From: Acidimicrobiia bacterium
GTDB taxonomy: Bacteria > Actinomycetota > Acidimicrobiia > IMCC26256 > JAMXLJ01
Assembly (NCBI GenBank): GCA_024281095.1
Contig: JAMXLJ010000103.1
Span: forward strand, 1-34,675
Reading direction: 5' to 3'
Length of the DNA stretch: 34,675 bases
In this document: one piece after another, positions 357 to 16,317 of the stretch
How the letters are laid out: the number at the start of each line of letters is the position of its first letter
Position numbering within the stretch: position 1 is the stretch's first letter
Translations under genes and position numbers: made by a program
Notes under the pieces: model-generated
What the model saw: the letters and a program-made list of their open reading frames with translations, nothing else
What the model was told of the DNA's origin: nothing
Database searches by the model: none

Positions 357-2823
<2,467 letters not shown>

Positions 2824-2833
2824 GGCCGGCGGC

Positions 2834-3706
2834 ATGCAGCGACCCGAGAGAGGCGTCGTCGACACGATGATGTCGATACCTCCCGAGCCCGGCGACATGA
2901 GCTGGCTCGAGGCACTGCGTCCGCTCCTACGCGACGAGGAATCGCTGTCGGCGTTCAAGTTTCCGGCCGAGTACATGTTCAAGAATCTGCCCGCGGCGCG
3001 CTTCGCAGACGACGCGCTCGTCGCGGTTCTGCACGAGATGGACCGCTTCGGCGTGGCGCGGGCGATGATCGGTGTCAGCTTCGGCAACGAACGCGCGCTC
3101 GCCGCGTTGCGCGATCATCCCGACCGCTTCTTCGGGAGCTTCGAGGTCGACCCGAATCAGGGTGAAGAGGGTGTGCGCGCGCTCAGACGGGCGGTCGAGG
3201 ACCTCGGGGTGCGGGCCGCGACCGCGTTCCCCGCCGGGACCTTCCCGCAGGTCCCCGTCGACGACGCGCGCTGGTACCCGCTCTACCAGGCCTGCGTCGA
3301 TCTCGACATCCCGATCTGCGTCTGCCTGGGTGTGCCGGGCCCGCGGGTACCGGCCGCGCCGCAGGACGTCATGGGCATCGACGAGGTGTGTTACCGCTTC
3401 CCCGAGTTGACGGTCGTCACCCGCCACGGCTGCGAGCCGTGGACCGCGCTCGCGGTGAAGCTGATGCTCAAATGGCCGAACCTCTACTACTCCACCAGCG
3501 CGTTCGCGCCGAAGCACTATCCCCGCGACGTCATCGAGTACGCGAACACGCGCGGTGCCGACAAGGTCATCTACGCGGGGTACTTCCCGATGGGACTGTC
3601 GCTCGAGACCATCTTCACGCAGCTGCCCGAGGTTCCGCTGCGCGACCACGTCTGGCCCAAGTTCCTCGGCGACAACGCGCGGCGAGTGTTCCGGCTGGAC
3701 GCGTAA
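2834..3706 (+). CDS. Amidohydrolase-2 family TIM-barrel protein lacking the metal motif
   Basis: The 290-residue protein resembles the amidohydrolase_2 (ACMSD-like) barrel in its second half: DLDIPICVCLGVPGP, VDEVCYRFPELTVVTRHG and KLMLKWPNLYYSTSAF, closing with DNARRVFRL. The usual N-terminal HxH zinc pair is absent; the corresponding stretch reads VVDTMMSIPP. The barrel-end GSDYP/GTDYP motif appears as YAGYFPMG, so the metal-binding Asp is also missing. His201 or so (TRHG) remains. It is therefore either a non-catalytic member or uses another chemistry. The ATG at 2834 lies 10 bases after the racemase stop; an alternative ATG is at 2867. Co-transcription with the racemase suggests a role in the same CoA-ester pathway. 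Confidence 0.75.
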   Translation: MQRPERGVVDTMMSIPPEPGDMSWLEALRPLLRDEESLSAFKFPAEYMFKNLPAARFADDALVAVLHEMDRFGVARAMIGVSFGNERALAALRDHPDRFFGSFEVDPNQGEEGVRALRRAVEDLGVRAATAFPAGTFPQVPVDDARWYPLYQACVDLDIPICVCLGVPGPRVPAAPQDVMGIDEVCYRFPELTVVTRHGCEPWTALAVKLMLKWPNLYYSTSAFAPKHYPRDVIEYANTRGADKVIYAGYFPMGLSLETIFTQLPEVPLRDHVWPKFLGDNARRVFRLDA

Positions 3707-3710
3707 CGAA

Positions 3711-4559
3711 TCACAGCGGGAAATCGTCGGGCCAGTCGCGCGTGGGGCTGAGCTGCCATACGGGATCGCGCTTCTCCACGAACGCCACCACACCTTCACG
3801 CGCGTCCTCACGTCCCATCACCACGCGGTGCAGCTCGGTCTCGACCCGCTCGACGTCGTCGGGCCCGAGCGCGGTGCCGCTCCACAGCAGTCGCTTGCTC
3901 AACGCGACCGACAGCGGCGCGGTGTTGCGGGCCACGTCGCGAGCCAACTCCAGTGCGGCGGGGAGCACCTCCGCGGCGGGCAGCGCCCGGCTCGCGAGGC
4001 CGAGCGCGACGGCCTCGCGGCCCGAGAACTCGCGCCCGGTGAGCAGCAGCTCGGCCGCGACTGCAAAGCCGGCCGCGCGCGGAACGGTCCAGTGCGAGTG
4101 GGCGTCGGGAATCACGCCCCGCCGCACGTGCACGAACCCGAGCCGAGCGTCCTCGGCGACCAACCGGATGTCGCACTGCATCGGGATCGTCAGGCCGATC
4201 CCGATGGCGTGGCCGTTGATCGCGGCGACGACGGGTTTGCGCACCTCCCACGCCCGCGGCCGCACCGGTGACGCGGTGAATTCGCGTACCGGGCCCGAAG
4301 GCGACGCGAACGTCTCGCTGCCGCGCTCGAAGTCCGCGCCGGCGCAAAACGCCCGGCCCGCGCCCGTCAGCACGACGGCGCGTACGGCATCGTCGGCGTC
4401 GCAACGGCCGTAGATTCGCCCGAGCTCGTCGCCCATGCGACCCGTGAACGCGTTGAGCCGGTCCGGTCGGTTCAACGTGACGAGCGCGACTCCGTCGTCG
4501 AGGCTGAACGTGACGTGCTCGAAGCTGTCGTGCTCGAAGCTGTTGTGCTGGTCGACCAC
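3711..4559 (-). CDS. Enoyl-CoA hydratase/isomerase (crotonase) family protein
   Basis: The 282-residue crotonase carries the CoA-binding NRPDRLNAF segment, the oxyanion-hole AFCAGADF motif, and INGHAIGIG followed by CDIRLVAEDARLGF. Both Glu residues of classical enoyl-CoA hydratase are absent: the first position falls in GIGLTIP and the second in LGFVHVRRG. Members with VRRGxxP then usually carry a Glu that here is Asp (VIPDAHSHW). A hydratase of classical mechanism is therefore doubtful; an isomerase or hydrolase of the crotonase fold is possible. The start is a GTG at 4559 behind a GGGGGA ribosome site. Residues 5-15 contain a short NSFEH/DSFEH repeat. It converges on the amidohydrolase-like gene, with only four bases between the stops, and is divergent from the LLM monooxygenase. 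Confidence 0.85.
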   Translation of the reverse strand: MVDQHNSFEHDSFEHVTFSLDDGVALVTLNRPDRLNAFTGRMGDELGRIYGRCDADDAVRAVVLTGAGRAFCAGADFERGSETFASPSGPVREFTASPVRPRAWEVRKPVVAAINGHAIGIGLTIPMQCDIRLVAEDARLGFVHVRRGVIPDAHSHWTVPRAAGFAVAAELLLTGREFSGREAVALGLASRALPAAEVLPAALELARDVARNTAPLSVALSKRLLWSGTALGPDDVERVETELHRVVMGREDAREGVVAFVEKRDPVWQLSPTRDWPDDFPL

Positions 4560-4597
4560 TCGTCCCCCTACAGCCTGCGCACGGCCGACTCTACGGT

Positions 4598-4607
4598 TGA
4601 GCGCTCA
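4598..4607. promoter_or_regulatory. Perfect 10-bp palindrome between crotonase and LLM genes
   Basis: TGAGCGCTCA is a perfect palindrome lying between two copies of CGACTCTACGGT (4586-4597 and 4642-4653). Read on the minus strand, the first copy offers a TAGAGT -10-like box for the crotonase gene. The location in a divergent promoter makes it a candidate operator, but ten bases can be chance. Confidence 0.3.
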
Positions 4608-4624
4608 GCGGTCCGTCCATCTGC

Positions 4625-4653
4625 TTGACCCTTCCGAAGGTCGACTCTACGGT
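4625..4653 (+). promoter_or_regulatory. Sigma-70 type promoter of the LLM gene, probably leaderless
   Basis: TTGACC (4625-4630) and TACGGT (4648-4653) are separated by exactly 17 bases, a good housekeeping promoter for a high-GC actinobacterium. The ATG at 4662 begins eight bases after the -10 box, and no ribosome site fits between them, so the transcript probably starts at or next to the ATG. CCTTCCGAAGG (4630-4640), an 11-base inverted repeat with a one-base centre, sits in the spacer and could be a repressor site. Confidence 0.6.
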
Positions 4654-4661
4654 CGGTCGTC

Positions 4662-5807
4662 ATGGAATTCGGGATCTTCATCCAGGGTCATCTGCCGCGC
4701 TCGCGCTGGAACGACGACCCGGACGCCGAGCACACCGCGCTGACGCGCGAGGTCGAGCTCGTCGAAGCCGCCGACCGCAACGGGTGGAAGTACGTCTGGG
4801 TCACGGAGCACCACTTCCTCAACGAGTACTCACATCTCTCGGCCAACGAGGTGTACCTCGGATACCTCGCGCACGCGACCGACCGGATCCATCTCGGCTC
4901 GGGAATCTTCAACATCAACCCGCAGGTGAACCACCCGGCCCGCGTCGCCGAGCGCGTCGCGATGCTCGACCACCTCAGCGACGGTCGCTTCGAGTTCGGC
5001 ACCGGTCGCGGCGCCGGCAGCCGTGAAGTCACCGGGTTCGGCCTGCCCGACACGAACGTCACCAAGGAGATCTACGACGAGGTCATCCCGGAGTTCGTGA
5101 AGATGTGGCGCGACGGCCCGTACGGCCACGACGGAAAGTGGTTCTCGATGCCGCCCCGCGAGATCCTCCCGAAGCCCTGGCGGAACTCGCACCCGCCGCT
5201 GTGGGTCGCAGCGGGCAACCCGCCCACGTACGAGAAGGCCGCCCGCCGCGGCATGGGTGTGCTCGGCTTCAACGTCGCGTCGATCGGCGAGATGGAGCCG
5301 ATGGTCCGCGCGTACAAGAGCGCGATCGGTTCCGCCGAGCCCGTCGGCGAGTACGTCAACGACAACGTGATGATCACCAACGGGCTCGTCTGCCTCGAAG
5401 ACGGTCGCAAGGCCCGCGACCTCGTCTGCCACATGGGAATCGGCTACCTGCAGAGCCTCGTGTTCCACTACCACGACACGTTCCCGCCGGCTGAGGGCCT
5501 CCCACGGTGGCCCGACCTCATACCCGAGCCCACACCCGAGGACGTCGAGTACCGCATCAACGAGGGATTCATCCTGTGTGGGGATCCCGACGAAGTCGTC
5601 GCCCAAGCGCGGCGCTACGAGAGCGTCGGGGCCGATCAACTCGTGTTCGGTCTCCCACTCGACATGGGGTTCGACGCCGCGCTCGAATCGATCGAGCTGT
5701 TCGGCCAACACGTCATCCCGAAGCTCGACCCCGACCCCGTGCACCGCACGACCAGGTTCCGCCAGGGCGCGCCTTCCACGTCTCGCACCCCGCCCACTGC
5801 CGCGTGA
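4662..5807 (+). CDS. LLM-class flavin-dependent monooxygenase (bacterial luciferase-like)
   Basis: The 381-residue protein begins with the class signature MEFGIFIQGH and continues with VTEHHFLNEYSHLS, a strand rich in HLGSGIF, and the DHLSDGRFEFGTGRG segment that helps hold the flavin and its phosphate. The family uses FMNH2 or F420 to oxidise alkanes, aldehydes, ketones or other small substrates; which cofactor is used here cannot be told. The ATG at 4662 gives the exact family N-terminus. It seems to be expressed from its own leaderless promoter, away from the divergent crotonase. The last 25 residues or so are Pro/Thr/Arg-rich and look like an unconserved tail. The desulforedoxin-like genes follow after 19 bases, possibly with a separate promoter. 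Confidence 0.88.
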   Translation: MEFGIFIQGHLPRSRWNDDPDAEHTALTREVELVEAADRNGWKYVWVTEHHFLNEYSHLSANEVYLGYLAHATDRIHLGSGIFNINPQVNHPARVAERVAMLDHLSDGRFEFGTGRGAGSREVTGFGLPDTNVTKEIYDEVIPEFVKMWRDGPYGHDGKWFSMPPREILPKPWRNSHPPLWVAAGNPPTYEKAARRGMGVLGFNVASIGEMEPMVRAYKSAIGSAEPVGEYVNDNVMITNGLVCLEDGRKARDLVCHMGIGYLQSLVFHYHDTFPPAEGLPRWPDLIPEPTPEDVEYRINEGFILCGDPDEVVAQARRYESVGADQLVFGLPLDMGFDAALESIELFGQHVIPKLDPDPVHRTTRFRQGAPSTSRTPPTAA

Positions 5808-5814
5808 CGGCAGG

Positions 5815-5820
5815 TACGCT
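5815..5820 (+). promoter_or_regulatory. Possible -10 box for leaderless expression of the mini-protein genes
   Basis: TACGCT ends six bases before the ATG at 5827, and no ribosome site is visible there. This matches the TANNNT spacing seen at several other starts in the window. No convincing -35 element is present, so co-transcription with the LLM gene remains possible. Confidence 0.3.
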
Positions 5821-5826
5821 GGCCCT

Positions 5827-5973
5827 ATGAGTGCACCGAAGGTCGGGGAACGCCTCCGCTGTTCGCAGTGCGGCACGGAGATCATCGTCGTGAAGGCGCC
5901 GACCGGCCCCGTGTCGTGCTGCGGCGCCGAGATGACCGCACGGGCGCAGCAAGGGAGCGAGAGTGCCCAATAA
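5827..5973 (+). CDS. Desulforedoxin-like mini-protein with a Cys4 metal site
   Basis: A 48-residue protein with Cys12-x2-Cys15 (RCSQCGTEI) and an adjacent pair Cys31-Cys32 (SCCGAEM). This CxxC plus CC arrangement, with a short hydrophobic strand (IIVVKAP) between, is that of desulforedoxin and of the N-terminal domain of desulfoferrodoxin, which bind one iron through four thiolates and transfer electrons. Zinc binding is the alternative. The ATG at 5827 is the only plausible start. The gene overlaps the next small gene by 11 bases, so the two are almost certainly translated together. Metal identity and partners are not visible; a redox role beside the flavin monooxygenase is inference. Confidence 0.7.
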   Translation: MSAPKVGERLRCSQCGTEIIVVKAPTGPVSCCGAEMTARAQQGSESAQ

Positions 5974-6106
5974 CTTGGGGAAGCGGTACACGTGCGCCGA
6001 ATGCGAGGCCACGGTGCTCGTCACCAAGGCGGGCGACGGCGCGCTGGAGTGCCACGGCAAGGCGATGGAGATCCTCCAGGCGAAGCCGCTGCCCTCGTCC
6101 GACTGA
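5963..6106 (+). CDS. Second desulforedoxin-like mini-protein (Cys3-His)
   Basis: A 47-residue frame opens with GTG at 5963, ten bases before the previous stop ends, and closes at the TGA 6104-6106. GGGAG at 5953-5957 serves as ribosome site. It parallels its neighbour: Cys11-x2-Cys14 (TCAECEATV), then a strand VLVTKAG, then Cys30-His31 (LECHGKAM) in place of the Cys-Cys pair. It is thus a diverged tandem copy in which the fourth thiolate is replaced by His, which would shift the potential of an iron centre or favour zinc. Its short length makes it easy to miss. The crotonase gene starts seven bases later, so the three genes form one unit. Confidence 0.65.
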   Translation: MPNNLGKRYTCAECEATVLVTKAGDGALECHGKAMEILQAKPLPSSD

Positions 6107-6113
6107 CACCTCC

Positions 6114-7151
6114 GTGCCCGTCGTCGTCGTCGACCCGCAGGTGTTCGACGGCCCCTCGGCTCCGGCGGTGCTCGCCGCCCTGGTCGACGAGCTCGGCGGC
6201 GACCCCACGCTGCTGTGCTTCGACGGCGACTGGCCCCCCGGCATCGAGGTCGATCCCTCGACGCGCACGAGCCTGCGGAGGCTCCCCGCGCTGTCCGTCG
6301 CCGTGGCGTGCCCGGACCCCGCGGTGGCCGCCGCGTTCGATCTCGCCGTCGTCGACGCGGACGCGCTCGCACCACTCCGGGTCGGGTTCGAACAGGCGCC
6401 GTATGCGTCGGTGTCCGCGGCGTTGCTGCTCCGTGACGCTCCGGACGACACCTGGGCCGGGCTCGTCGCCGAGTCGGGCACCTACTCGCTCTTGCAAGCA
6501 GGCCCCGAGTTCCGACGGTGGCTCGCATCACGGTGTGCGCCACGGCCCGCCCGCGAGGACGACGCCGAACGAGTGACGGTGGAGCGGCGCGGCGCGATCC
6601 ACGAGATCGTGCTCACACGCGGCGAACGCCACAACGCGTTCGACGCGCGGATGCGCGACCAGCTGCATGCCGTCTTGCGAGACCTCGCCGCGGTCGACGG
6701 CCCGATCGTCGTGCGCGGCGACGGCCCTTCGTTCTCGTCGGGTGGTGATCTCGCGGAGTTCGGGAGCTCGGCGGGGCCCGTGCAGTCCCACGTCCTGCGC
6801 GTGACCCGATCGGTCGCGATGCTGCTGAGCGATCTCGCGCCCCGGCTGGTCGTCGCCCTGCACGGTGCGTGCATCGGCGCGGGGATCGAGCTGCCGGCGT
6901 TCGCGTCGCGTGTGATCGCGGCCGACACTGCGCGCTTCGCACTCCCCGAGCTGAAGCTCGGCCTCGTCCCCGGAGCCGGCGGCACCGTGTCGATCCGGCG
7001 CCGGATTGGCCGGGCCTTCCTGCTCGAGCTGCTCCTGTCCGGCCGCACGATCGACACGGCGACCGCCCGGCGCTCCGGGTTGGTCGACGAGGTCGTGCCG
7101 CTCGCGCAGCTCCGCGACCGCGCGTACGCCATCGCCGAATCGATGACGTGA
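6114..7151 (+). CDS. Enoyl-CoA hydratase with an N-terminal extension
   Basis: The 345-residue protein has two parts. Residues 1 to about 150 form an Ala/Asp/Val-rich region that I do not recognise; it contains alternating strands (VVVVDPQVF, TLLCFDG, SVAVACP) that could be a small alpha/beta domain. Residues 153-345 form a crotonase domain with HNAF at 173-176, oxyanion-hole segments around SFSSGGDL and HGACIGAGIEL, and both classical catalytic glutamates: Glu259 (GAGIEL) and Glu279 (LPELKLGLVPGAGG). It should hydrate trans-2-enoyl-CoA. The GTG at 6114 is chosen because it follows the mini-protein stop by seven bases and starts the first hydrophobic strand; no strong ribosome site is seen, in keeping with translational coupling. 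It converges on the SDR pair. Confidence 0.8.
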   Translation: MPVVVVDPQVFDGPSAPAVLAALVDELGGDPTLLCFDGDWPPGIEVDPSTRTSLRRLPALSVAVACPDPAVAAAFDLAVVDADALAPLRVGFEQAPYASVSAALLLRDAPDDTWAGLVAESGTYSLLQAGPEFRRWLASRCAPRPAREDDAERVTVERRGAIHEIVLTRGERHNAFDARMRDQLHAVLRDLAAVDGPIVVRGDGPSFSSGGDLAEFGSSAGPVQSHVLRVTRSVAMLLSDLAPRLVVALHGACIGAGIELPAFASRVIAADTARFALPELKLGLVPGAGGTVSIRRRIGRAFLLELLLSGRTIDTATARRSGLVDEVVPLAQLRDRAYAIAESMT

Positions 7152-7160
7152 CCCGAGCTG

Positions 7161-7925
7161 TCAGAGGCCGGTGAAGCTGCCGCCGTCACACACGATGGTC
7201 TGGCCCGTGACGTAGCCCGCGTCATCGCTCGCGAGGAAGGCGGCCACCGAGCCGATGTCGCGTTCGGCGTCGCCGACGCGCCCGAGCGGAGTGCGGGCCT
7301 CCAGCCGCTCCTTGAGCGTCGGATTCGAAGCGAACGCGTGCGCCAGTGCGGGCGTCTCCGCGACCGGCGCGATGCAGTTGACAGTGATCCCGTGCGGGCC
7401 CCATTCGCGGGCCAGGCTCTTGGCGATCGCGCGTTGGGCCGCTTTCACCGGCGCGTACAACGGGATGTTGGCGCTGCCCTCCACACCGGCGGGCGAGGTC
7501 ACGAGGATCAGACGCCCACGCGCACCGGCATCGCGCAGGTGCGGGTAGGCGAGCTGCGCACAGAAGAACGAGCCCCATACCGCGGTGCGCGAGTTCTGCT
7601 CCCAAACGTCGGCGCCGGCATCCTCCAGGCGGTGCGCCACGCCGCCGCGGAACGCGTTGTGGATCATGACGTGCAATGCGCCGAAGCGCGCGACCGCCGC
7701 GTCGACACAGGCGGCGACGTCGTCACGGCGGGTCACGTCGGTCACGATGCAGACCGCCTCCCCACCGCGCGCGGAGATCTCGTCGACGACCGGATCACCG
7801 GTCTGCGCGCGCCGGGCCGCGATGACGACGCGCGCACCGCGCTCCGCCATCGCGAGCGCGATGCCGCGGCCCACACCCTGGCCCGCTCCGGTCACGATGG
7901 CGACGCGCCCGTCGAGCCCGGTCAC
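7161..7925 (-). CDS. Short-chain dehydrogenase/reductase (catalytically complete)
   Basis: A classical 254-residue SDR. The nucleotide site TGAGQGVGRG lies near residue 11, the active-site Ser is in LVTSPAG, the Tyr and Lys are in LYAPVKAA, and the C-terminus has the FabG-like YVTGQTIVCDGG. The NNAG motif is changed to HNAF. The GTG start at 7925 overlaps the stop of the preceding SDR gene by four bases (GTGA), so translation is coupled; a longer frame to 7955 would only add an Arg run. It probably acts as an NAD(P)-dependent 3-hydroxyacyl-CoA dehydrogenase or ketoreductase in the surrounding beta-oxidation genes. Its partner is a degenerate copy, so a mixed oligomer is likely (inference). 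Confidence 0.87.
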   Translation of the reverse strand: MTGLDGRVAIVTGAGQGVGRGIALAMAERGARVVIAARRAQTGDPVVDEISARGGEAVCIVTDVTRRDDVAACVDAAVARFGALHVMIHNAFRGGVAHRLEDAGADVWEQNSRTAVWGSFFCAQLAYPHLRDAGARGRLILVTSPAGVEGSANIPLYAPVKAAQRAIAKSLAREWGPHGITVNCIAPVAETPALAHAFASNPTLKERLEARTPLGRVGDAERDIGSVAAFLASDDAGYVTGQTIVCDGGSFTGL

Positions 7926-8668
7926 GGTGCCATCCACACGCCGCCGTCGACGCACAACGTCGCGCCGGTGACGAAATGGGCTGCCTCGGAGGCCAGGAAG
8001 GTGACGACGGGGCCGAGATCGGCGCGCGGGTCACCGGCGCGGCCGAGCGCCGGCGCGGCCAGCGACACCGACGCCGCGCTGACGCCCTCGAGCGCCAGCT
8101 CGGGCGCGGGTGCGATGCAGTTCACCGTGATGCCGTGCGCGCCCCATTGACGCGCGGCCGACTTCGCGAGCAGGCGTTGGCCCTCGACCGCGGCGGCCAG
8201 CGGCGCGAGCCCTGGCGCGCCGGACATCGACAGCGTCGGTGTGACCACGACGAAGCGGCCGAACCCGCCGTCGCGCATCGCGGGGAACGCGGCCTGGAAC
8301 AGGAACAGCGTGGAACGCATCGTGCGCTCCCAGGTCGCGTCCCACGCGGCGTCGGTCACGTCCGCGAACGAGCTGGGGGCCGCGGTCGCGTCGCCCATCG
8401 GATGCATCGCGTGCACGACGACGTCGACCGTAGTGCCGAGCGCGCCGCTCGCCCGTGCGATCACGTCGCCGGCGCCGTCGGGCGAACCGATGTCGCCTGC
8501 GACCGACATCACCCGTTCGTCGGCACACGGGCCGAGCGCGACAACCCGTGCGCCCGCGCCGGCGAGCGCGGCAGCGAGACCGCGACCGATGTCGAGGTCC
8601 GCGCCGGTCACGAGCGCGCCGCGTTGCGTGAGATCGGTCGCTGCGGGCACGGAGCCGGAAGCTAACAC
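7922..8668 (-). CDS. Degenerate SDR (probable pseudoenzyme partner of the next SDR)
   Basis: This 248-residue SDR is clearly paralogous to the gene after it: WGAHGITVNCIAP and FVTGATLCVDGG match WGPHGITVNCIAP and YVTGQTIVCDGG. The catalytic positions are lost, however. The Ser segment reads VVTPTLS, and Tyr-x3-Lys is replaced by PLAAAVEGQ. The glycine motif is TGADLDIGRG, with Asp in place of the middle Gly, and NNAG is HAMH. The fold and the C-terminal dimer interface look intact, so it is not a decaying gene; third-position GC is normal throughout. The start is a GTG at 8668, with a second GTG at 8650 as alternative. It probably forms a heteromer with the active SDR. Confidence 0.8.
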   Translation of the reverse strand: MLASGSVPAATDLTQRGALVTGADLDIGRGLAAALAGAGARVVALGPCADERVMSVAGDIGSPDGAGDVIARASGALGTTVDVVVHAMHPMGDATAAPSSFADVTDAAWDATWERTMRSTLFLFQAAFPAMRDGGFGRFVVVTPTLSMSGAPGLAPLAAAVEGQRLLAKSAARQWGAHGITVNCIAPAPELALEGVSAASVSLAAPALGRAGDPRADLGPVVTFLASEAAHFVTGATLCVDGGVWMAP

Positions 8669-8696
8669 CCGATCCCGTCGGTGCGGCCGGTGGCAT

Positions 8697-8709
8697 GCGA
8701 AGCTTTCGC
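8697..8709. promoter_or_regulatory. Small inverted repeat between divergent SDR and membrane-protein genes
   Basis: GCGAA and TTCGC are separated by GCT in the 55-base gap between the starts at 8668 and 8724. The position suits an operator, but the arms are only five bases long and no -10/-35 pair is convincing next to it. Confidence 0.2.
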
Positions 8710-8723
8710 GACCCGAGGACGCG

Positions 8724-10388
8724 ATGCAGTCTCACACCACGACCCGGCCCGCCGTCACACCCGACCCGGGCGACACGCGCCCTCGCGTGGGGCCCGATGG
8801 TCGCCGCCTGGTCCTCGTCGTCGTGGGGCTGGCCCTGCTCCCGCTCGTGGTGTCGGCGATTGCCATCGTGGTGCGTGGCGGGGCACTGCATCCCTGGGGT
8901 GACCAGGCCCTCCTCGAGCTCGACGTGCGCGACGTCACCCGTCACTTCGTGCTCACGGGGGCGTACTCACGTTTCGGCTGGCGCCATCCCGGGCCGCTCG
9001 AGCTCTACCTCGTCGCGCTGCCGTATCGCCTCGTCGCCGAGCACTCGGTGGGCATCTATCTCGGTGCACTGCTGCTGAACGGCGTCGCGATCGCCGGGAT
9101 CGCGCATCTTGCGCGGCGCCGCGCGGGAACACCACTGCTCGTCTGGTCGATGTTCGTCACGCTGCTGCTCGTGCGTACGTTCGGGCCCAACGCGGTGCGC
9201 AACCCCTGGACGCCCTACGTCACGGTCATCCCATGTCTGTTGATGATCCTGCTGGGGTGGTCGCTCGTCGAGGGCGACACGTGGGCCCTGCCCTTCGCGG
9301 TCGCGACCGGGTCCTTCCTGGTGCAGGCCCACGTCGAGTACACGGCCCTGGTCGTCGTGCTCGTGGGTGGTGGGCTCGTCGTGCTCGCGGTCCGCGCCCT
9401 TGCCGAGCCGGGCCGCCCCCATATCGCGCGTCTCGCGCGCATCACCGCGATCTCCGCCGTGGTGGGGGTGCTGCTGTGGATCCCGCCGGTCGTGCAACAG
9501 CTGACCCATCACCCCGGCAACCTCGGGTTGCTCGTGCGGTTCTTCCGCGCCGGCCATCCCGGCCATGGCCTGTCGACCGCGCTGCACGTCGTCGCCGGTG
9601 AGTGGTCGTGGCGGCCGAACTGGCTGGTGCACTGGGGATCGGTACGGGCCGCTTCGGGTGAGCTCAACACGTCGAGCTCGCCGGTGCCCGTCCTGCTCGT
9701 GCCCTATGTCGCCGCGCTCGCGCTGTCGTGGCGGCGGGCTCCCTCGGCTCGCAATCTGCTCCTCGTCGTCGCGGCCTCGTGGGCCGTCGCGATCGTGTCC
9801 GTCACCCACATCGTCGGCGGGCTGTACCCATATCTCCTCCGCTGGCTGGACGCGCTCGGCGCCGCGACCCTGCTGGCGATCGGCTTCGCACTCTGGACCC
9901 GCCTCGCCGACGCGCGACGGGGCGCCCGCCTCGCGGTGAGCGCGGCGACCGCGGTGACCGCGGTCGCCGTGGCCGGTCTCGTCGCCACGAGCGTTGTCGC
10001 GTGCGTCGCCTCCGGCCGTGCGCGGATCCCGTACGCGGCTGAGTCGCAGATGCTGGCCCGGCTCGAGAAGCCCGTCCTCACCGCGGCGCGGGACGCCCAC
10101 GGCCTCGTCGTGCTGCGCCGCGACGACACGGGCTATGCCGCAGCCACGCTCGCCGGCATCGCGCTCGAGTTGGAGCGCCACCATGTGCCCGTGCGGGTCG
10201 ACGCCCGGAAGGACCCGGCCCTCGGCGCGCTCTTCACGACGTCGCGCCTCTTCCATACGAGCATGGCCAACGCGACGGCAGTGTGGCTCACCGTCACGGC
10301 CGGCGGTCGAGTCCCGCCGGATGCCGGCAATCAGATCGCGTCCGCCGGTCCGGTCAGGGTGCTCCAGCTTCGGTTCCAAGGGCGTTGA
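8724..10388 (+). CDS. Polytopic membrane protein, GT-C glycosyltransferase-like
   Basis: The 554-residue protein has a first membrane segment at about residues 28-47 (LVLVVVGLALLPLVVSAIAI). A first external loop follows with acidic residues in WGDQALLELDVRD, then the motif SRFGWRHPGPLELYL, and about nine or ten further hydrophobic segments up to about residue 440. A soluble C-terminal domain closes the protein. An acidic first loop followed by many membrane spans is the plan of GT-C transferases, which use polyprenyl-linked sugars outside the membrane. A related actinobacterial membrane family with a GW-HPGP signature exists, but its donor and acceptor are unknown to me. The ATG at 8724 has a weak GAGG upstream. 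The last 35 bases overlap the end of the convergent AhpD/CMD gene. Confidence 0.65.
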   Translation: MQSHTTTRPAVTPDPGDTRPRVGPDGRRLVLVVVGLALLPLVVSAIAIVVRGGALHPWGDQALLELDVRDVTRHFVLTGAYSRFGWRHPGPLELYLVALPYRLVAEHSVGIYLGALLLNGVAIAGIAHLARRRAGTPLLVWSMFVTLLLVRTFGPNAVRNPWTPYVTVIPCLLMILLGWSLVEGDTWALPFAVATGSFLVQAHVEYTALVVVLVGGGLVVLAVRALAEPGRPHIARLARITAISAVVGVLLWIPPVVQQLTHHPGNLGLLVRFFRAGHPGHGLSTALHVVAGEWSWRPNWLVHWGSVRAASGELNTSSSPVPVLLVPYVAALALSWRRAPSARNLLLVVAASWAVAIVSVTHIVGGLYPYLLRWLDALGAATLLAIGFALWTRLADARRGARLAVSAATAVTAVAVAGLVATSVVACVASGRARIPYAAESQMLARLEKPVLTAARDAHGLVVLRRDDTGYAAATLAGIALELERHHVPVRVDARKDPALGALFTTSRLFHTSMANATAVWLTVTAGGRVPPDAGNQIASAGPVRVLQLRFQGR

Positions 10389-10869
10389 CCGGGTTGATGG
10401 AGCACTCCTGGTCGAGCTTGAGCACCTGGGTGAGTCGACCGAACGCCAGGTAGTCGGCCACGCAGATCGTCAGGTCGAGGATCTCGGCGTCCTCGAAGTG
10501 CTCGCGAAGACGGGAGAAGAACGCGTCGTCGATCCCGAGATGCTCGAGGGCGAACCGCTCGGCGTACTCGATCGCGAGCTTCTCACGCTCGGAGTAGTCG
10601 CCGTGCTCGCGATACTCGGCGACGTGGGCGTACATCTCCTCGGTGACGCCTTGTCGCGCCAACGGCGCGATCCGCCATCCCAGTCATATGGGGCAGTCGT
10701 TGATCTGTGCGATGCGCATGCGCACGCATTCGCGCTCGCGCGCGGGGAGCCGACTCTGGTTGTACACCGCGTCGCTGAGCGCCGTGACAGCCTTCGACAT
10801 CTCGGGCCGCAGGGACCAGACCCGATAGATCTCCGGCCCCTCACCCTCCGGTACGTCGATGCGTGCCAA
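10354..10869 (-). CDS. AhpD/carboxymuconolactone decarboxylase family protein, candidate selenoprotein (CxxU)
   Basis: Read through one in-frame TGA (10684-10686), this is a full-length 171-residue AhpD-like protein. The N-terminal part has RPEMSKAV and LPARERECVRMRIAQINDC; the C-terminal part continues in the same frame with GVTEEMYAHV, YSEREKLAIEYAERFAL and DAEILDLTICVADYLAFGRL. The TGA is codon 62 and falls exactly where the family has the second Cys of CxxC: Cys59-Pro-Ile-U62. Glu47 is 12 residues before Cys59, as in the AhpD Glu-x11-Cys-x2-Cys relay. A hairpin of SECIS type follows the TGA. The TTG start at 10869 has an excellent GAGGAGGAG ribosome site. The most likely role is thiol/selenol peroxidase or disulfide reductase. 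The alternative is a recent nonsense mutation or sequencing error; no frame decay is visible. Confidence 0.7.
10654..10670 (-). promoter_or_regulatory. SECIS-like hairpin following the in-frame TGA
   Basis: On the minus strand TCGCGCC, loop GTT, GGCGCGA forms a perfect seven-base-pair stem. Twenty bases separate the TGA (ending at 10684) from the loop (10663-10661), and the loop begins with G. Bacterial SECIS elements are described as small stem-loops inside the coding frame with the apical loop about 16-37 bases after UGA and a G at the start of the loop, so all three criteria are met. A weaker lower helix GATG/CGTC can extend it. Chance pairing in GC-rich coding DNA is possible. Confidence 0.55.
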
Positions 10870-10893
10870 CTGGCTCCTCCTCGTCGATGCGCA

Positions 10894-12315
10894 CTATTCC
10901 ACTCGTCCGAGACCCAGCTGCGCCAGCACCGTGCCGGTGTCGGCGCCGAGCCCGGGCCCGGCGCCCCGCCGCGTGCGAGCACGAGGTGGTGCTGCGACCA
11001 GTCCCGGCGGGGCCCGTCCGGCCCGCCGCGATCCGGTGCCGGCGAACACCGACGTGACCACACGACGCAGCGCGACGTCGACGAGCGCGCCGCGCCCACC
11101 GACGAGACACGCGAGCGCGGCCGCGGCCGCGTGCAGACCCGCGGCCGGATCGGCGAACGCGTCCGCGCAGATCATCGGCGGGCCGCACTCGTCGCCGATC
11201 AACGCGCACGCGCCACCCGCGGCCGCGGCATCGTCTCCGAACGCGACGCGGTCACACCAACTGCCGGTACGCCCGTAGCCCGTGATGCTGATCCACGTGA
11301 CACCACGGTCGCGCACCAACACCTCGGGATCGATGCCGAGATTCTCCATCACCCGCGGGCGCGCGCTCTCGACGACCACGTCGGCGCGTTCCAAGAGCGC
11401 GCCCAAGGTGGCGCTGCGGAAGTCGATGCACACGCTGCGCTTCCCTGCGTTGAGCAGATCGAAGAACGCCCGCGGGCCGCGGCGAGCACCGTCGGGACGC
11501 GCGGGCGACTCGACCTTCACGACGTCCGCTCCCGCCTCACCGAGGAGCGCGGCACACAGAGGCCCGGCCCACAACGCGCTCAGGTCGACGACGAGCGGCC
11601 GCGCGCGCGGGCGCCGCTGCGCGCCGGGTGTGACGACCCACGGGGCGCCCGATCGCTCCAAGCCGCGCGCTGCGCGATCCTCCGCCGCGGCCTCCTCCGG
11701 CGTGACGACGGCCGCAACGGGAAGGCCCAGCAACGCGGCGCGCTCGACGAGCTCGTCACGCGTCGCGCCGACGACCCATGCCGCAAGCGCGTCCCAGGGA
11801 TCGCCATGAACTTCGCGTTGCATCAACGCGGGCAGCATCAGGAAGTCGTCGCGGCGCGCGAGGTTCCACGCAAGCCAGCCGTCGCGCGCCGCCAACAGCC
11901 GGCAGCTGCCGCCCGGCGACACCGTGCCCTGGCGGGACAGCCCCGCGATCGCGGCTCGCTCGCCGAGGAGCGCCGGCCCGTCGAGGTCGACACGCGAGCC
12001 GAGCTGCTCCGACAACACCGCGACCACCAGCGCCGCGCCTCGAATGCGGGCGGTGACGTCGCCGGGCACAGGTCGGCCCGGCCCTTCCGGCTCGCCCGTG
12101 AGCGCCATCGCACCCGACCCGGCCCAGTCGTCCAACGGGTCGCGATCGCCGTCGTCGTCGAGAACGAGCCGTGTGGATCGCTTGGTCCCCGCGGACCCCT
12201 CGGACGCATCGCCTTCCGCGGCTGCGCCGAGTGAAGTGAGCAGCTCGCACGCGGCGCGCGTCACGCGCGTGGAACCGGTGTCGCGAACGGCGAAGCCCCG
12301 GAGCGGTGCGGTCAG
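10894..12315 (-). CDS. CaiB/BaiF-type CoA-transferase with rearranged modules
   Basis: The protein (473 residues from the start used here) has an unusual order. Residues 1-35 look like a reduced CaiB N-terminus (LRGFAV ... LLTSLGA). Residues 62-215 match the middle and C-terminal half of the family (DDWAGSGAMALTGEPEGPG, then a DGWLAW segment and LGLPVAAVVTPEEA). Residues 240-430 are a second, well-conserved N-terminal half (LVVDLSALWAGPLCAALLGEAGADVVKVE, NAGKRSVCIDF, TGYGRTG, and an Asp-rich DAFADPAAG). A normal C-terminal end, LGADTGTVLAQLGL, then follows. The start is uncertain: CTG at 12315 overlaps the TetR stop as CTGA; TTG at 12351 is an alternative. It lies in one operon with TetR upstream and the AhpD/CMD gene 24 bases downstream. 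The substrate is unknown. Confidence 0.7.
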   Translation of the reverse strand: MTAPLRGFAVRDTGSTRVTRAACELLTSLGAAAEGDASEGSAGTKRSTRLVLDDDGDRDPLDDWAGSGAMALTGEPEGPGRPVPGDVTARIRGAALVVAVLSEQLGSRVDLDGPALLGERAAIAGLSRQGTVSPGGSCRLLAARDGWLAWNLARRDDFLMLPALMQREVHGDPWDALAAWVVGATRDELVERAALLGLPVAAVVTPEEAAAEDRAARGLERSGAPWVVTPGAQRRPRARPLVVDLSALWAGPLCAALLGEAGADVVKVESPARPDGARRGPRAFFDLLNAGKRSVCIDFRSATLGALLERADVVVESARPRVMENLGIDPEVLVRDRGVTWISITGYGRTGSWCDRVAFGDDAAAAGGACALIGDECGPPMICADAFADPAAGLHAAAAALACLVGGRGALVDVALRRVVTSVFAGTGSRRAGRAPPGLVAAPPRARTRRGAGPGLGADTGTVLAQLGLGRVE

Positions 12316-12986
12316 CTCGGCTTCTTGATCTTGCGGCCGGTGACGTTCCAATACAGGATCCGCGACAACGTGTCGACCTGCGTCGCGGTGCGCACGCCCC
12401 AGAACTCGAAGCCGTAGCGGTGCGCGGCGCAGTGGGCGAGCATCGCGACCATGATGAACGCCGTCGCAGTCGGGTCGACGTCGCGGTCGAGGCGACCGTC
12501 GTGTTGAAAATCGCGGACCACGTCGCACAGCGCATCCGTCACCCCGCCCAACGCACGCGTGCGGAGCTGCTTGAAGCGAAGGTCGCCCTCCTCGGTTGCG
12601 AGATCGACCACCCGGAACACGGCGCGGTGGCGCTCGTAGTACTCGAGAAAGCTCTCGACGATCCGCCGCGCCGTCTGGGCGCCGCGATCACCGCGCCAGT
12701 CGCCGCGGACGATGTCGCCGAGATACGCGGCGTCGGTCGCGAGCTCCTCCGCGAGCACGAGCACCGCTTGTTCGACGTCGGGAAAGTACTGGTAGAAGGT
12801 GGCCGGCGACGTACCCGCTTCACGAGCGATGTCGATGACCTTGATATCGCGGTACGACGTCTTCGACAGCAGCTCCGCCGTGCAGTCGAGGAGGCGGCGC
12901 CGGGTCGCGATGCCCCGCCGGCCGGGTACACGCCCGTCGGTCGCGCGGACGTCGTCCTGAAGCTCGCTCGGCTCGCTGACCGCCAT
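12312..12986 (-). CDS. TetR-family transcriptional regulator
   Basis: The 224-residue protein has an N-terminal helix-turn-helix at about residues 46-67 (YRDIKVIDIAREAGTSPATFYQYFPD), preceded by RRRLLDCTAELL. The rest is a helical ligand-binding domain ending in a basic KIKKPS tail. The ATG at 12986 is used; TACCCT lies eight bases before it, so the message is probably leaderless. A 15-base palindrome (13010-13024) in its promoter is the likely operator, consistent with autoregulation and with control of the divergent FadD19-like gene. Regulators next to acyl-CoA ligases usually sense an acyl-CoA; the ligand here is unknown. Confidence 0.88.
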   Translation of the reverse strand: MAVSEPSELQDDVRATDGRVPGRRGIATRRRLLDCTAELLSKTSYRDIKVIDIAREAGTSPATFYQYFPDVEQAVLVLAEELATDAAYLGDIVRGDWRGDRGAQTARRIVESFLEYYERHRAVFRVVDLATEEGDLRFKQLRTRALGGVTDALCDVVRDFQHDGRLDRDVDPTATAFIMVAMLAHCAAHRYGFEFWGVRTATQVDTLSRILYWNVTGRKIKKPS

Positions 12987-13009
12987 TGAAGGCAAGGGTA
13001 TCCGGGGCT

Positions 13010-13024
13010 CTGACGACTCGTCAG
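13010..13024. promoter_or_regulatory. 15-bp palindrome, probable TetR operator
   Basis: CTGACGACTCGTCAG has perfect seven-base arms around a central C. It lies 24 bases before the TetR start at 12986 and covers the place of a -35 box (CTGACG on the minus strand, 18 bases before TACCCT). It is also 69 bases upstream of the divergent ligase start. This is the usual size and place for a TetR-family operator. Confidence 0.6.
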
Positions 13025-13066
13025 CCCTGAGAGGCAACCGGGCGTCGGTGCCTTGCCGCGTTCGAC

Positions 13067-13080
13067 GGGAACGTGTTCTA
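13067..13080. promoter_or_regulatory. Second KstR-like site, upstream of the FadD19-like gene
   Basis: GGGAACGTGTTCTA contains the full AACnnGTT core and the right-hand CTA of the KstR motif TnnAACnnGTTnnA; only the first T is missing. It ends 12 bases before the ligase start at 13093. The overlapping CGTTC/GAACG pair (13059-13073) forms a further inverted repeat. Mycobacterial fadD19 is a known KstR target, so site and gene agree. Confidence 0.5.
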
Positions 13081-13092
13081 CTTCGCTCCCGG

Positions 13093-14754
13093 ATGGCTTC
13101 CGTTCCCGCGTTCAATCTCGCCGACCTCTTCGAGCTCGTCGTCGACACGGTTCCCGACCGTCTCGCGTTGGTCGCGGGCGATCGTCGCCTCACCTACCGC
13201 GAGCTCGACGAGCGGGCCAACCGCCTCGCGCACCACCTCGCAGCCATCGGCATCGGGCCCGGCGACCCGGTCGCCATCTACTCGTGGAACCGGGCGGAAT
13301 GGGTCGAGGCGATGTTCGCGGCATGGAAGATCCGCGCCGTGCCGCTCAACGTCAATTACCGCTACGTCACGGAAGAAGCGCGCTACATCCTCGACAACGC
13401 CGACGCGGTGGCGGTCGTCCACGAGCGGTCGTTCGCTCCCCTCCTCGCCGTCATTCGCGACGACCTGCCGCGTATTCGCCACTACGTCGTGCTCGACGAC
13501 GGCAGCGACGCCGACGAGGCGCACGCGGCATGCGAGGCGCTCGAGGCGGTCGACTACGAAGCGGCACTTCGATCGCAGCCGCCCGGGCGCGGGTTCCCGC
13601 CGCGGTCTTCCGACGATCTCTACGTGCTCTACACCGGCGGCACCACGGGCATGCCCAAGGGCGTCGTGTGGCGCCACGAAGACATCTTCTTCGCCGCGAT
13701 GGGCGGCGGCGGCTTCGGCCAGCCGCCGATCACCACGCCCGAGGAGCTCACCGGTCGGGTTGCGGCCGAGGGGGCACAGCTCGTCGGGATCTGCAACGCG
13801 CCGATGATGCACGGCGGCGGCCAGTGGGTGACCTGCATTGCGTTCTTCGGCGGCAACACCGTCATCCTCAACACCGACCGGCACTTCGACCCCGACGCGG
13901 TGTGGCGCCTGGCGGAGCGCGAGCACGCGCGCACGATCATGGTCGTCGGCGATGCCATGGCCCGGCCGCTCGTCGACGCGCTCTCACGGCCAGGAGCTTC
14001 GTACGACACGAGCAACATCGTCGGCATCGGTTCGGGTGGCGCGCTCCTCTCGAGCGCGGTGAAGGACCAGTTGCGCGCCGCGCTGCCGAACGCGGTGGTC
14101 GTCGACAGCTTCGGCGCGTCGGAGACGGGCGCGGGCGGCAGTGTGATGGACCTCGACGGGCCCGCGGCGGGCCCCCGCTTCACCATGGGCGAATTCATGA
14201 CGGTGCTCGACGACGACCTGCGCCCCGTGCGGCCGGGTTCGGGTGAGGTCGGACGCCTCGCCCGCAGTGGTCACGTGCCGTTGCGCTACCACAAGGACGA
14301 CGAGAAGACCGCGGCGACGTTCCTCACGACCGCGGACGGCACGCGCTGGGTCGTGCCGGGCGATTACGCGCGCATCGAGTCGGACGGCACGATCACACTG
14401 CTCGGCCGCGGCTCGGTGTGCATCAACTCCGGCGGCGAGAAGATCTTCCCCGAAGAAGTGGAAGCCGCGCTGAAGTCGCATCCCGACGTGTTCGATGCGG
14501 TCGTCGTCGGCGTGGCCGACGACCGTTTCGTGGAGCGGGTGGCGGCAATCGTGCAACCCCGGCCGGCCGCGAGCGTCTCGCTCGAAGACCTGCAGGTGCA
14601 CTGCCGCACGAAGCTTGCCGGCTACAAGGTGCCGCGCCAGCTCGTCGTCGTCGACGAGCTGGTGCGCACGCCCGTCGGCAAGCCTGACTACAGATGGGCG
14701 AAGGTGACCGCAACCGGTTCGCCGGCGCCCGTCGCCACCGACGCGCGTTCGTAA
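13093..14754 (+). CDS. Acyl-CoA synthetase, FadD19-like (steroid side-chain type)
   Basis: A 553-residue AMP-forming ligase. It activates a carboxylic acid through an acyl-adenylate to the CoA thioester. The P-loop-like motif YTGGTTGMPKG is at 180-190, followed by VVWRHEDIFF. A GIGSGGALLS segment, DSFGASETG, PGDYARIESDGTI, LGRGSVCINSGGEKIFPEEVEAAL and the C-terminal PVGKPDYRWAK with the catalytic Lys follow. The YTGGTTG form, WRHEDI and GKPDYRWAK are those of mycobacterial FadD19, the 3-oxocholest-4-en-26-oate ligase of cholesterol side-chain breakdown. Substrate assignment is by resemblance remembered, not searched. The ATG at 13093 is chosen over an upstream GTG at 13048. A KstR-like site precedes it, and a second ligase follows after 12 bases. 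Confidence 0.85.
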   Translation: MASVPAFNLADLFELVVDTVPDRLALVAGDRRLTYRELDERANRLAHHLAAIGIGPGDPVAIYSWNRAEWVEAMFAAWKIRAVPLNVNYRYVTEEARYILDNADAVAVVHERSFAPLLAVIRDDLPRIRHYVVLDDGSDADEAHAACEALEAVDYEAALRSQPPGRGFPPRSSDDLYVLYTGGTTGMPKGVVWRHEDIFFAAMGGGGFGQPPITTPEELTGRVAAEGAQLVGICNAPMMHGGGQWVTCIAFFGGNTVILNTDRHFDPDAVWRLAEREHARTIMVVGDAMARPLVDALSRPGASYDTSNIVGIGSGGALLSSAVKDQLRAALPNAVVVDSFGASETGAGGSVMDLDGPAAGPRFTMGEFMTVLDDDLRPVRPGSGEVGRLARSGHVPLRYHKDDEKTAATFLTTADGTRWVVPGDYARIESDGTITLLGRGSVCINSGGEKIFPEEVEAALKSHPDVFDAVVVGVADDRFVERVAAIVQPRPAASVSLEDLQVHCRTKLAGYKVPRQLVVVDELVRTPVGKPDYRWAKVTATGSPAPVATDARS

Positions 14755-14766
14755 CGAAGGAGACCG

Positions 14767-16317
14767 ATGGCCGAACTGGGCTTCTGGAACATCGCCGGCG
14801 ACGACCCCGACCACCTTGCCGTGGTCGATCCGGCCGGACGCGAGGTCAGCGCGGGTGAGCTTCTCGCGTCGTGCAATCAGCTCGTGCACGGTTTGCGGGA
14901 GCTCGGCCTGCAGCCCGGCGACGCGATCGCGATGCTCCTCCCGAACTCGGTGGAGGTCTTCGAGCTCTACCTCGCCGTGCTGCAAGCCGGCTTCTACCTC
15001 GTGCCCATCAACTTCCACCTCGTGGGCCCGGAGATCGCGTACATCGTGCAGGACTGCGAAGCGAAGGTGTTCGTGTCGCACGAGCGCTTCGCCGCGGCCG
15101 CGACCGCGGCAGCCGACGAGATCGAGTTCGCGAAAGAGGGTCGCTTCGCAGTCGGCGACGTGCCGGGGTTCCGGCGCTACGACGAGCTGAAGGACGGCCA
15201 ACCGACGACGCTTCCGGCCGATCGCACGACCGGCGCGGTCATGAACTACACCTCCGGCACCACTGGCCGGCCCAAGGGCGTGAGGCGGAAGCTGCCCGGC
15301 GTTCCCCCCGACGAGATCGCGATCACGTTCGGCGGGATGCTGCTGCTCTTCGGGCTGCAGCCGGGCGACGACAACGTGCACATCTGCGGCTCACCGCTGT
15401 ACCACACCGCGGTGCTCGTGTTCGCGGGTGGCGCGCTCCACCTGGGCTTCACCGTTGTCCTCATGGACAAGTGGACACCCGAGTCGATGCTCGAGCTCAT
15501 CGAGCGGTACCGCGTCACGAACAGCCACATGGTGCCGACGCAGTTCCACCGCCTGCTCGCACTGCCCGACGACGTAAAGGCGAGATACGACGTGTCGTCG
15601 CTGCGTCACATGGTGCACGCGGCGGCACCGTGCCCGCCCGACGTGAAGCGCCGCATGATCGAGTGGTGGGGCCCGGTGATCGACGAGTACTACGCCGCAA
15701 GCGAGGGCGGCGGCACGCTCGTGCGTTCCGAGGAATGGCTCGACCACCCCGGCACGGTCGGACGCGCCTGGCCGAACGCGGAGATCGTCGTCCTCGACGA
15801 CGACGGAAACGAGCTCGGCCCGAACGAGGTCGGCACGGTGTACATGCACATGGCCACCGGGGACTTCGAATACTTCAAGGACAAGGACAAGACGCAGCGC
15901 AGCCGGGTCGGGAAGTTCTTCACGGTCGGCGACATCGGGTACCTGGACGACGACGGCTGGCTGTTCCTGCGCGACCGCAAGGCCGACATGATCATCTCCG
16001 GCGGCGCCAACATTTATCCGGCTGAGATCGAGAGCGTGCTGCTCACGCATCCGAAGGTCGGCGACGCGGCGGTGTTCGGTATCCCGCATGACGACTGGGG
16101 TGAAGAGGTAAAAGCGGTCGTGGAGCCGGCCCCGGGCGTCGCGGCGTCGCCGGAGCTGGCCGGCGAGATCCTGAGCTTCTGCGCCGACAAGCTCGCAAAG
16201 TTCAAGACCCCGAAATCGCTCGACTTCATCGAGGAGATGCCGCGCGACCCGAACGGCAAGCTGTACAAGCGGAAGCTGCGCGACCCGTACTGGGAAGGAC
16301 GGGAGCGCGCGATCTGA
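14767..16317 (+). CDS. AMP-forming acyl-CoA ligase (FadD family)
   Basis: The 516-residue ligase starts at an ATG with GAAGGAGA directly before it and follows the FadD19-like gene by 12 bases, so both belong to one transcript. The adenylate motif YTSGTTGRPKG is at 161-171. Further on are EYYAASEGGG, a GDIGYLDDDGWLFLRDR hinge region, ISGGANIYPAEIE and the Lys in PNGKLYKRKLRDPYW. It resembles mycobacterial FadD4-type enzymes rather than its neighbour, so the two ligases probably activate different acids, for instance a side-chain acid and a shorter intermediate. Length and motifs are complete. Confidence 0.88.
   Translation: MAELGFWNIAGDDPDHLAVVDPAGREVSAGELLASCNQLVHGLRELGLQPGDAIAMLLPNSVEVFELYLAVLQAGFYLVPINFHLVGPEIAYIVQDCEAKVFVSHERFAAAATAAADEIEFAKEGRFAVGDVPGFRRYDELKDGQPTTLPADRTTGAVMNYTSGTTGRPKGVRRKLPGVPPDEIAITFGGMLLLFGLQPGDDNVHICGSPLYHTAVLVFAGGALHLGFTVVLMDKWTPESMLELIERYRVTNSHMVPTQFHRLLALPDDVKARYDVSSLRHMVHAAAPCPPDVKRRMIEWWGPVIDEYYAASEGGGTLVRSEEWLDHPGTVGRAWPNAEIVVLDDDGNELGPNEVGTVYMHMATGDFEYFKDKDKTQRSRVGKFFTVGDIGYLDDDGWLFLRDRKADMIISGGANIYPAEIESVLLTHPKVGDAAVFGIPHDDWGEEVKAVVEPAPGVAASPELAGEILSFCADKLAKFKTPKSLDFIEEMPRDPNGKLYKRKLRDPYWEGRERAI

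Follow-up and report, generated by a model that had tools for sequence, protein, structure and literature searches.

A probable AhpD-like selenoprotein within a conserved acyl-CoA gene cluster of Actinomycetota

A gene on the minus strand of the window (the whole stretch of 34,675 nucleotides of Acidimicrobiia DNA that was analysed) very probably encodes a selenoprotein of the AhpD-like redox family within the CMD superfamily, in which an inner TGA would be read as selenocysteine (Sec) in a CxxU motif. Three observations lead to this reading: i) the alignment column of the inner TGA holds only TGA or Cys codons, ii) a positioned and covarying hairpin follows the TGA, and iii) the source genome possesses the complete Sec machinery. 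AhpD-like selenoproteins of this kind are known from marine metagenomes; the present gene belongs to a subfamily with an unusual active site, and its slot in the cluster is filled by a Sec form in some species and a Cys form in others.

An AhpD-like frame with one inner TGA

The minus-strand frame spanning positions 10869 to 10354 contains, upon translation, a single inner stop, the TGA at codon 62, which lies in the motif N-D-C59-P-I-U62. The TTG at 10869 is the sole possible start past the upstream in-frame stop, and is preceded by a ribosome-binding site. The features of the gene are as follows.

10357..10869, minus strand: predicted AhpD/CMD-family selenoprotein gene of 171 codons (19.5 kDa), with the TTG start at 10869 and the terminal TGA at 10354-10356; its key residues are Glu47, Cys59, Sec62 and Arg66
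10684..10686, minus strand: inner TGA, codon 62, predicted to be read as the selenocysteine of CxxU; a TGA or Cys codon occupies the column in 93/93 homologues
10875..10884 (approximate placement), minus strand: ribosome-binding site GAGGAGGAG, 5' of the TTG start, read directly from the sequence
10653..10671, minus strand: SECIS-like hairpin ATCGCGCC-GTT-GGCGCGAC, 12 nt past the TGA, with seven Watson-Crick pairs and a loop that starts with G

An earlier note on this DNA had described a complete AhpD-like frame interrupted once, at codon 62. That description is confirmed by the translation, by the Pfam model PF02627 (CMD), whose match runs through the TGA from residue 22 to residue 104 with 39.2 bits (cut-off 23) and places the protein in the CMD superfamily, and by the 93 homologues, all of which are intact. 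Shuffling the same GC-rich stretch gave a frame with no more than a single stop in 6.4% of cases; such a frame is thus not rare in GC-rich DNA, and the evidence for the gene is its homology rather than its openness. On the opposite strand, a long ORF without a Pfam match (8695-10388, plus strand), to all appearance encoding a membrane protein, separates the AhpD gene from two downstream dehydrogenase genes, and its 3' end runs convergently into that of the AhpD gene.

Exchange of selenocysteine and cysteine at codon 62

Homologues were sought in 58 genomes of the order, in 395 genomes of the class and in one scan of named genomes, and the loci were then read; the scan of named genomes, which relied on single-sequence peptide patterns, returned two relatives only. 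The resulting 93 homologues all belong to the same class of Actinomycetota, save for one Myxococcota record (L073). At the codon-62 column they carry TGA in 27 rows, TGC in 46 and TGT in 20, with no other codon present; the sequences are related, and these counts are not independent. Some TGA rows also duplicate one gene (L072, for instance, is a copy of L037), and the distinct TGA genes number 24. The column is accordingly Cys in homologues and TGA in close relatives, the pattern by which the earlier note had proposed to check its reading, and its placement of the TGA at the second Cys of CxxC is borne out. That note had further called the replaced residue the resolving Cys; the TGA does occupy the second Cys position, but sequence cannot tell which Cys resolves. 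Mapped onto a 90-row tree, the Sec/Cys state changes at least nine times, and three of these changes are forced by well-supported branches; Sec and Cys have replaced one another repeatedly here. A more distant relative (L140, genome G531) reads GSAYU, with Ser replacing the first Cys ahead of the TGA.

The source genome is a draft (4.39 Mb, 98% complete) and the window is one of its 177 contigs, a circumstance in which the TGA could be taken for a sequencing or assembly error, or for a nonsense mutation in a gene that is decaying. Several observations make this explanation extremely improbable. Genomes that were assembled separately, as well as two paralogues within the source genome, share the TGA at this column, which excludes a read error. 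Each of the 93 homologues is intact on both sides of codon 62 with no other inner stops, and for pairs of TGA-bearing genes dN is lower than dS before as well as after the TGA; there is purifying selection past the TGA, and the decay of the downstream half that the earlier note had thought of as a counter-sign is absent. The hairpin, described below, is moreover confined to the TGA genes of this column.

The hairpin and the selenocysteine machinery

Published bacterial SECIS elements possess a small apical loop with a G and are positioned just downstream of the TGA (PMC1088965), and the window hairpin agrees with them in both respects. A stem of eight pairs closed by a 3-nt loop starting with G, 12-30 nt past the TGA, is possible in most of the related TGA genes. 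TGA and Cys genes had similar folding energies over the 48 nt past the codon (Mann-Whitney p=0.23); since total folding energy does not separate the two groups in this GC-rich DNA, a positioned-pair test was needed, in which the pairs formed are compared with the expectation from synonymous codon shuffling. The 24 distinct TGA genes formed 6.8 of the eight pairs against 4.6 expected, with p<0.05 in 18/24 (p=0.025 for the window gene), while the 66 Cys genes formed 3.0 pairs against 3.2 expected, with p<0.05 in 0/66. TGA and Cys genes hence differ only in the positioned hairpin and not in overall folding energy.

Covariation was queried in 20 aligned TGA genes. Here 92% of cells were paired and both-side changes occurred in seven of the eight pairs, a result matched by 0/500 shuffles; sliding the partner by one base reduced pairing to 20-27%. 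Three TGA genes outside this alignment (L028, L031 and L048) have the hairpin in a shifted register with a 4-nt loop. A search of Rfam around the TGA returned no family above its gathering score.

The search for selA, selB, selC and selD that the earlier note had suggested found all four in the source genome: SelA with SelB directly downstream, SelD, and a tRNA-Sec scoring 69 bits with the anticodon TCA. The genome also carries two further AhpD-like CxxU genes, each with a hairpin, on contig 176 (NDCPIU) and on contig 19 (VDCGLU; L021:4716-5198), the latter adjoining a CMD copy without CxxC. The alpha subunit of formate dehydrogenase (FdhA; L135, contig 142) contains an in-frame TGA at the classical ENQARIUHS site, followed by a hairpin; this Sec formate dehydrogenase is an independent positive control for the use of Sec in the genome. 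Across genomes, SelA was found in 19/20 of those with a TGA form and in 26/54 of the Cys-only genomes (Fisher p=1.4e-4, a test that ignores relatedness). The sole TGA genome in which SelA was not found, G054 (79% complete), does have tRNA-Sec, and the Sec trait (SelA or tRNA-Sec) is present in 20/20 TGA-form genomes. A screen of the relatives' loci for more conserved TGA codons was overwhelmed by spurious alignments of GC-rich sequence, and only the family of the third paralogue, which was directly checked, was kept.

Inner TGA codons in three AhpD-like genes and one FdhA could also be accommodated if TGA had been reassigned to a sense codon throughout the genome, but the probability of this is practically nil: the same gene terminates with TGA at codon 172 and its relatives likewise end with TGA, so that TGA serves as a terminator and a general reassignment is refuted; the inner TGA codons found are, besides, located at known Sec positions. 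We also weighed whether the codon-62 TGA is a true stop, followed by a restart at the TTG at 10662, where an ORF does exist (10354-10662). The 102-residue product of such a restart would possess no redox motif, lacking Glu47, Cys59 and position 62, all of which are invariant; the upstream and downstream halves are under similar constraint; and the positioned, covarying hairpin and the complete Sec machinery would be left unexplained. We consider a restart very improbable.

Active site, gene neighbourhood and possible function

The predicted model of the protein is all-helical (pLDDT 89.4) and superposes on 2GMY and 2O4D with TM scores of 0.7-0.8, as for a PA0269-type fold, in which a hairpin of two helices bears the CxxC; by both fold and sequence profile, the nearest solved structures are Atu0492 (2GMY) and PA0269 (2O4D, 2IJC). 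These proteins possess a Glu and a CxxC at the same spacing as here. The AhpD proton relay comprises Glu118, Cys130, Cys133 and His137, and that of PA0269, which has weak peroxidase activity, comprises Glu36, Cys48, Tyr50, Cys51 and His55 (PMC3141380). In the window subfamily, Glu47 and Cys59 are invariant in 90/90 rows and column 62 is Cys or Sec; the part of the relay consisting of a Glu 12 residues before the first Cys, together with CxxC or CxxU, is therefore in place, and the distance of Glu47 stands as the earlier note had given it. The relay His four residues past the second Cys is not: Arg66 replaces it in 90/90 rows and aligns with the His of PA0269, in which CxxC is accompanied by His55 (PMC3141380) where the window protein has CxxU and Arg66. 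Mycobacterium tuberculosis AhpD (1GU9, 1KNC) shares the spacing, its Glu118-x11-Cys130-x2-Cys133 corresponding to Glu47-x11-Cys59-x2-Sec62, but differs in topology (Foldseek E about 0.5) and has His137 in the place of Arg66.

The earlier note, which mentioned AhpD-like selenoproteins from marine metagenomes, had thought that one in such an actinobacterial operon might be new, which was an overstatement. AhpD-like CxxU selenoproteins (COG2128/TIGR01926, PF02627) have been described since 2005, when 27 sequences were reported from the Sargasso Sea (PMC1088965); the GOS survey also reported them (299 + 70; PMC2398784), and a 2026 review includes them (PMC13188914). Within this class of Actinomycetota they are common. 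The window gene shares with them the CMD/AhpD-like family, the CxxU motif, Cys homologues at the same column and a SECIS downstream; they were first described from marine metagenomes, and the window subfamily differs from them in that an Arg invariably stands at +4 relative to the Sec. The window protein does not reach the cut-off of any of the related (seleno)protein families in NCBIfam, with 42 bits against 81.8 for the peroxidase-related enzyme TIGR01926 and 64 bits against 310 for NF053654 (GroundWater_YciW). The latter model, of a YciW-related (seleno)protein, is matched by 76/76 aligned members of the window subfamily, and its near-cut-off members in other Actinomycetota have a TGA at the same place; two of them (L137 and L138) differ in reading CxFU, in having Asn at +4 and in the absence of the Glu that otherwise precedes the Sec by 15 residues. 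No NCBIfam model names the window subfamily.

The genes that surround the AhpD gene in the window are listed below.

10894..12264, minus strand: short form of a class III (CaiB-like) CoA-transferase, immediately 5' of the AhpD gene, with three candidate starts (12264, 12135 or 12108)
12312..13193, minus strand: TetR-family regulator (TetR_N, TetR_C_38), to which the copy at the syntenic locus of G027 is 76% identical
7161-7955 and 7922-8668, minus strand: two short-chain dehydrogenase genes, which relatives also have downstream of their AhpD gene
360..7151: thiolase, CaiB CoA-transferase, amidohydrolase, enoyl-CoA hydratases and luciferase-like monooxygenase, the rest of the conserved acyl-CoA cluster
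13048..16317, plus strand: two AMP-binding (acyl-CoA ligase) genes, part of the conserved cluster

The TetR regulator and the CoA-transferase of the operon that had been proposed lie upstream on the same strand, but the setting is a wider conserved cluster for acyl-CoA catabolism, and much of this gene set recurs around the same AhpD gene in genome G027 and in family f16. There is no AhpC among the Pfam-scanned genes within the window. The AhpD slot holds Sec in G027, G041, G035, G033 and G031, and Cys in G036, G037 and G040. In family f16, a second AhpD-like gene, whose counterpart in the source genome is the one on contig 19, is located 3-4 kb off, in several genomes beside a copy without CxxC; it has Sec in G041, G033 and G037, and Cys in G035 and G036. 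Both slots thus hold Sec in G041 and G033, one does in G037 and G035, and neither in G036; these differing states indicate that the two slots switch independently. Read by locus, the second gene has Sec in L119, L121 and L127, and Cys in L120 and L128; the Cys copy of L128 retains the hairpin, perhaps as a relic.

Taken together, a model for the gene product can be proposed. As in established bacterial Sec insertion, SelB with Sec-tRNA would read the codon-62 UGA as Sec to furnish the all-helical protein of 19.5 kDa. The C59-x-x-U62 pair would then cycle between a selenenyl-sulfide and its reduced form, with the participation of Glu47 and with Arg66 standing in for the usual His. The correspondence of Glu47, Cys59 and Sec62 to PA0269, with Arg66 in the place of the His, points to a thiol/selenol redox function as the most likely one, with the protein reducing disulfides or acting like a peroxidase in the service of the acyl-CoA cluster. 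We somewhat favor a thiol/selenol reductase or weak peroxidase that would provide the neighbouring acyl-CoA catabolic enzymes with reducing power or with freedom from peroxide.

A selenoprotein whose Sec acts upon a pathway substrate instead of a peroxide or disulfide, for example by reductive removal of a substituent in the manner of the AhpD-like debrominase Bmp8, would fit the conserved placement of the gene within an acyl-CoA catabolism cluster as well as the Arg that replaces the relay His, and both the structural and the sequence searches list Bmp8 among their matches. However, Bmp8 is only 15% identical and the nearest structures are AhpD-like putative antioxidant proteins; we regard substrate chemistry as a serious though unlikely alternative. 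A bolder proposal, possible though rather doubtful, is that Sec-AhpD proteins are dedicated enzymes of an acyl-CoA catabolic pathway in this group of Actinomycetota, with two independently switching slots and with an Arg-for-His site performing chemistry other than that of the classical AhpD peroxidase.

These genes add a well-documented set of selenoproteins for Actinomycetota that are known mostly from draft genomes, and ordinary gene callers would cut such genes off at the TGA. The predicted Sec redox protein is tied to acyl-CoA catabolism and not to a known antioxidant operon. The variation of the slot between Sec and Cys within one order is a natural experiment: related species differ in which residue occupies the same slot of the cluster, and the hairpin accompanies Sec but not Cys, so that what Sec gains over Cys is directly testable.
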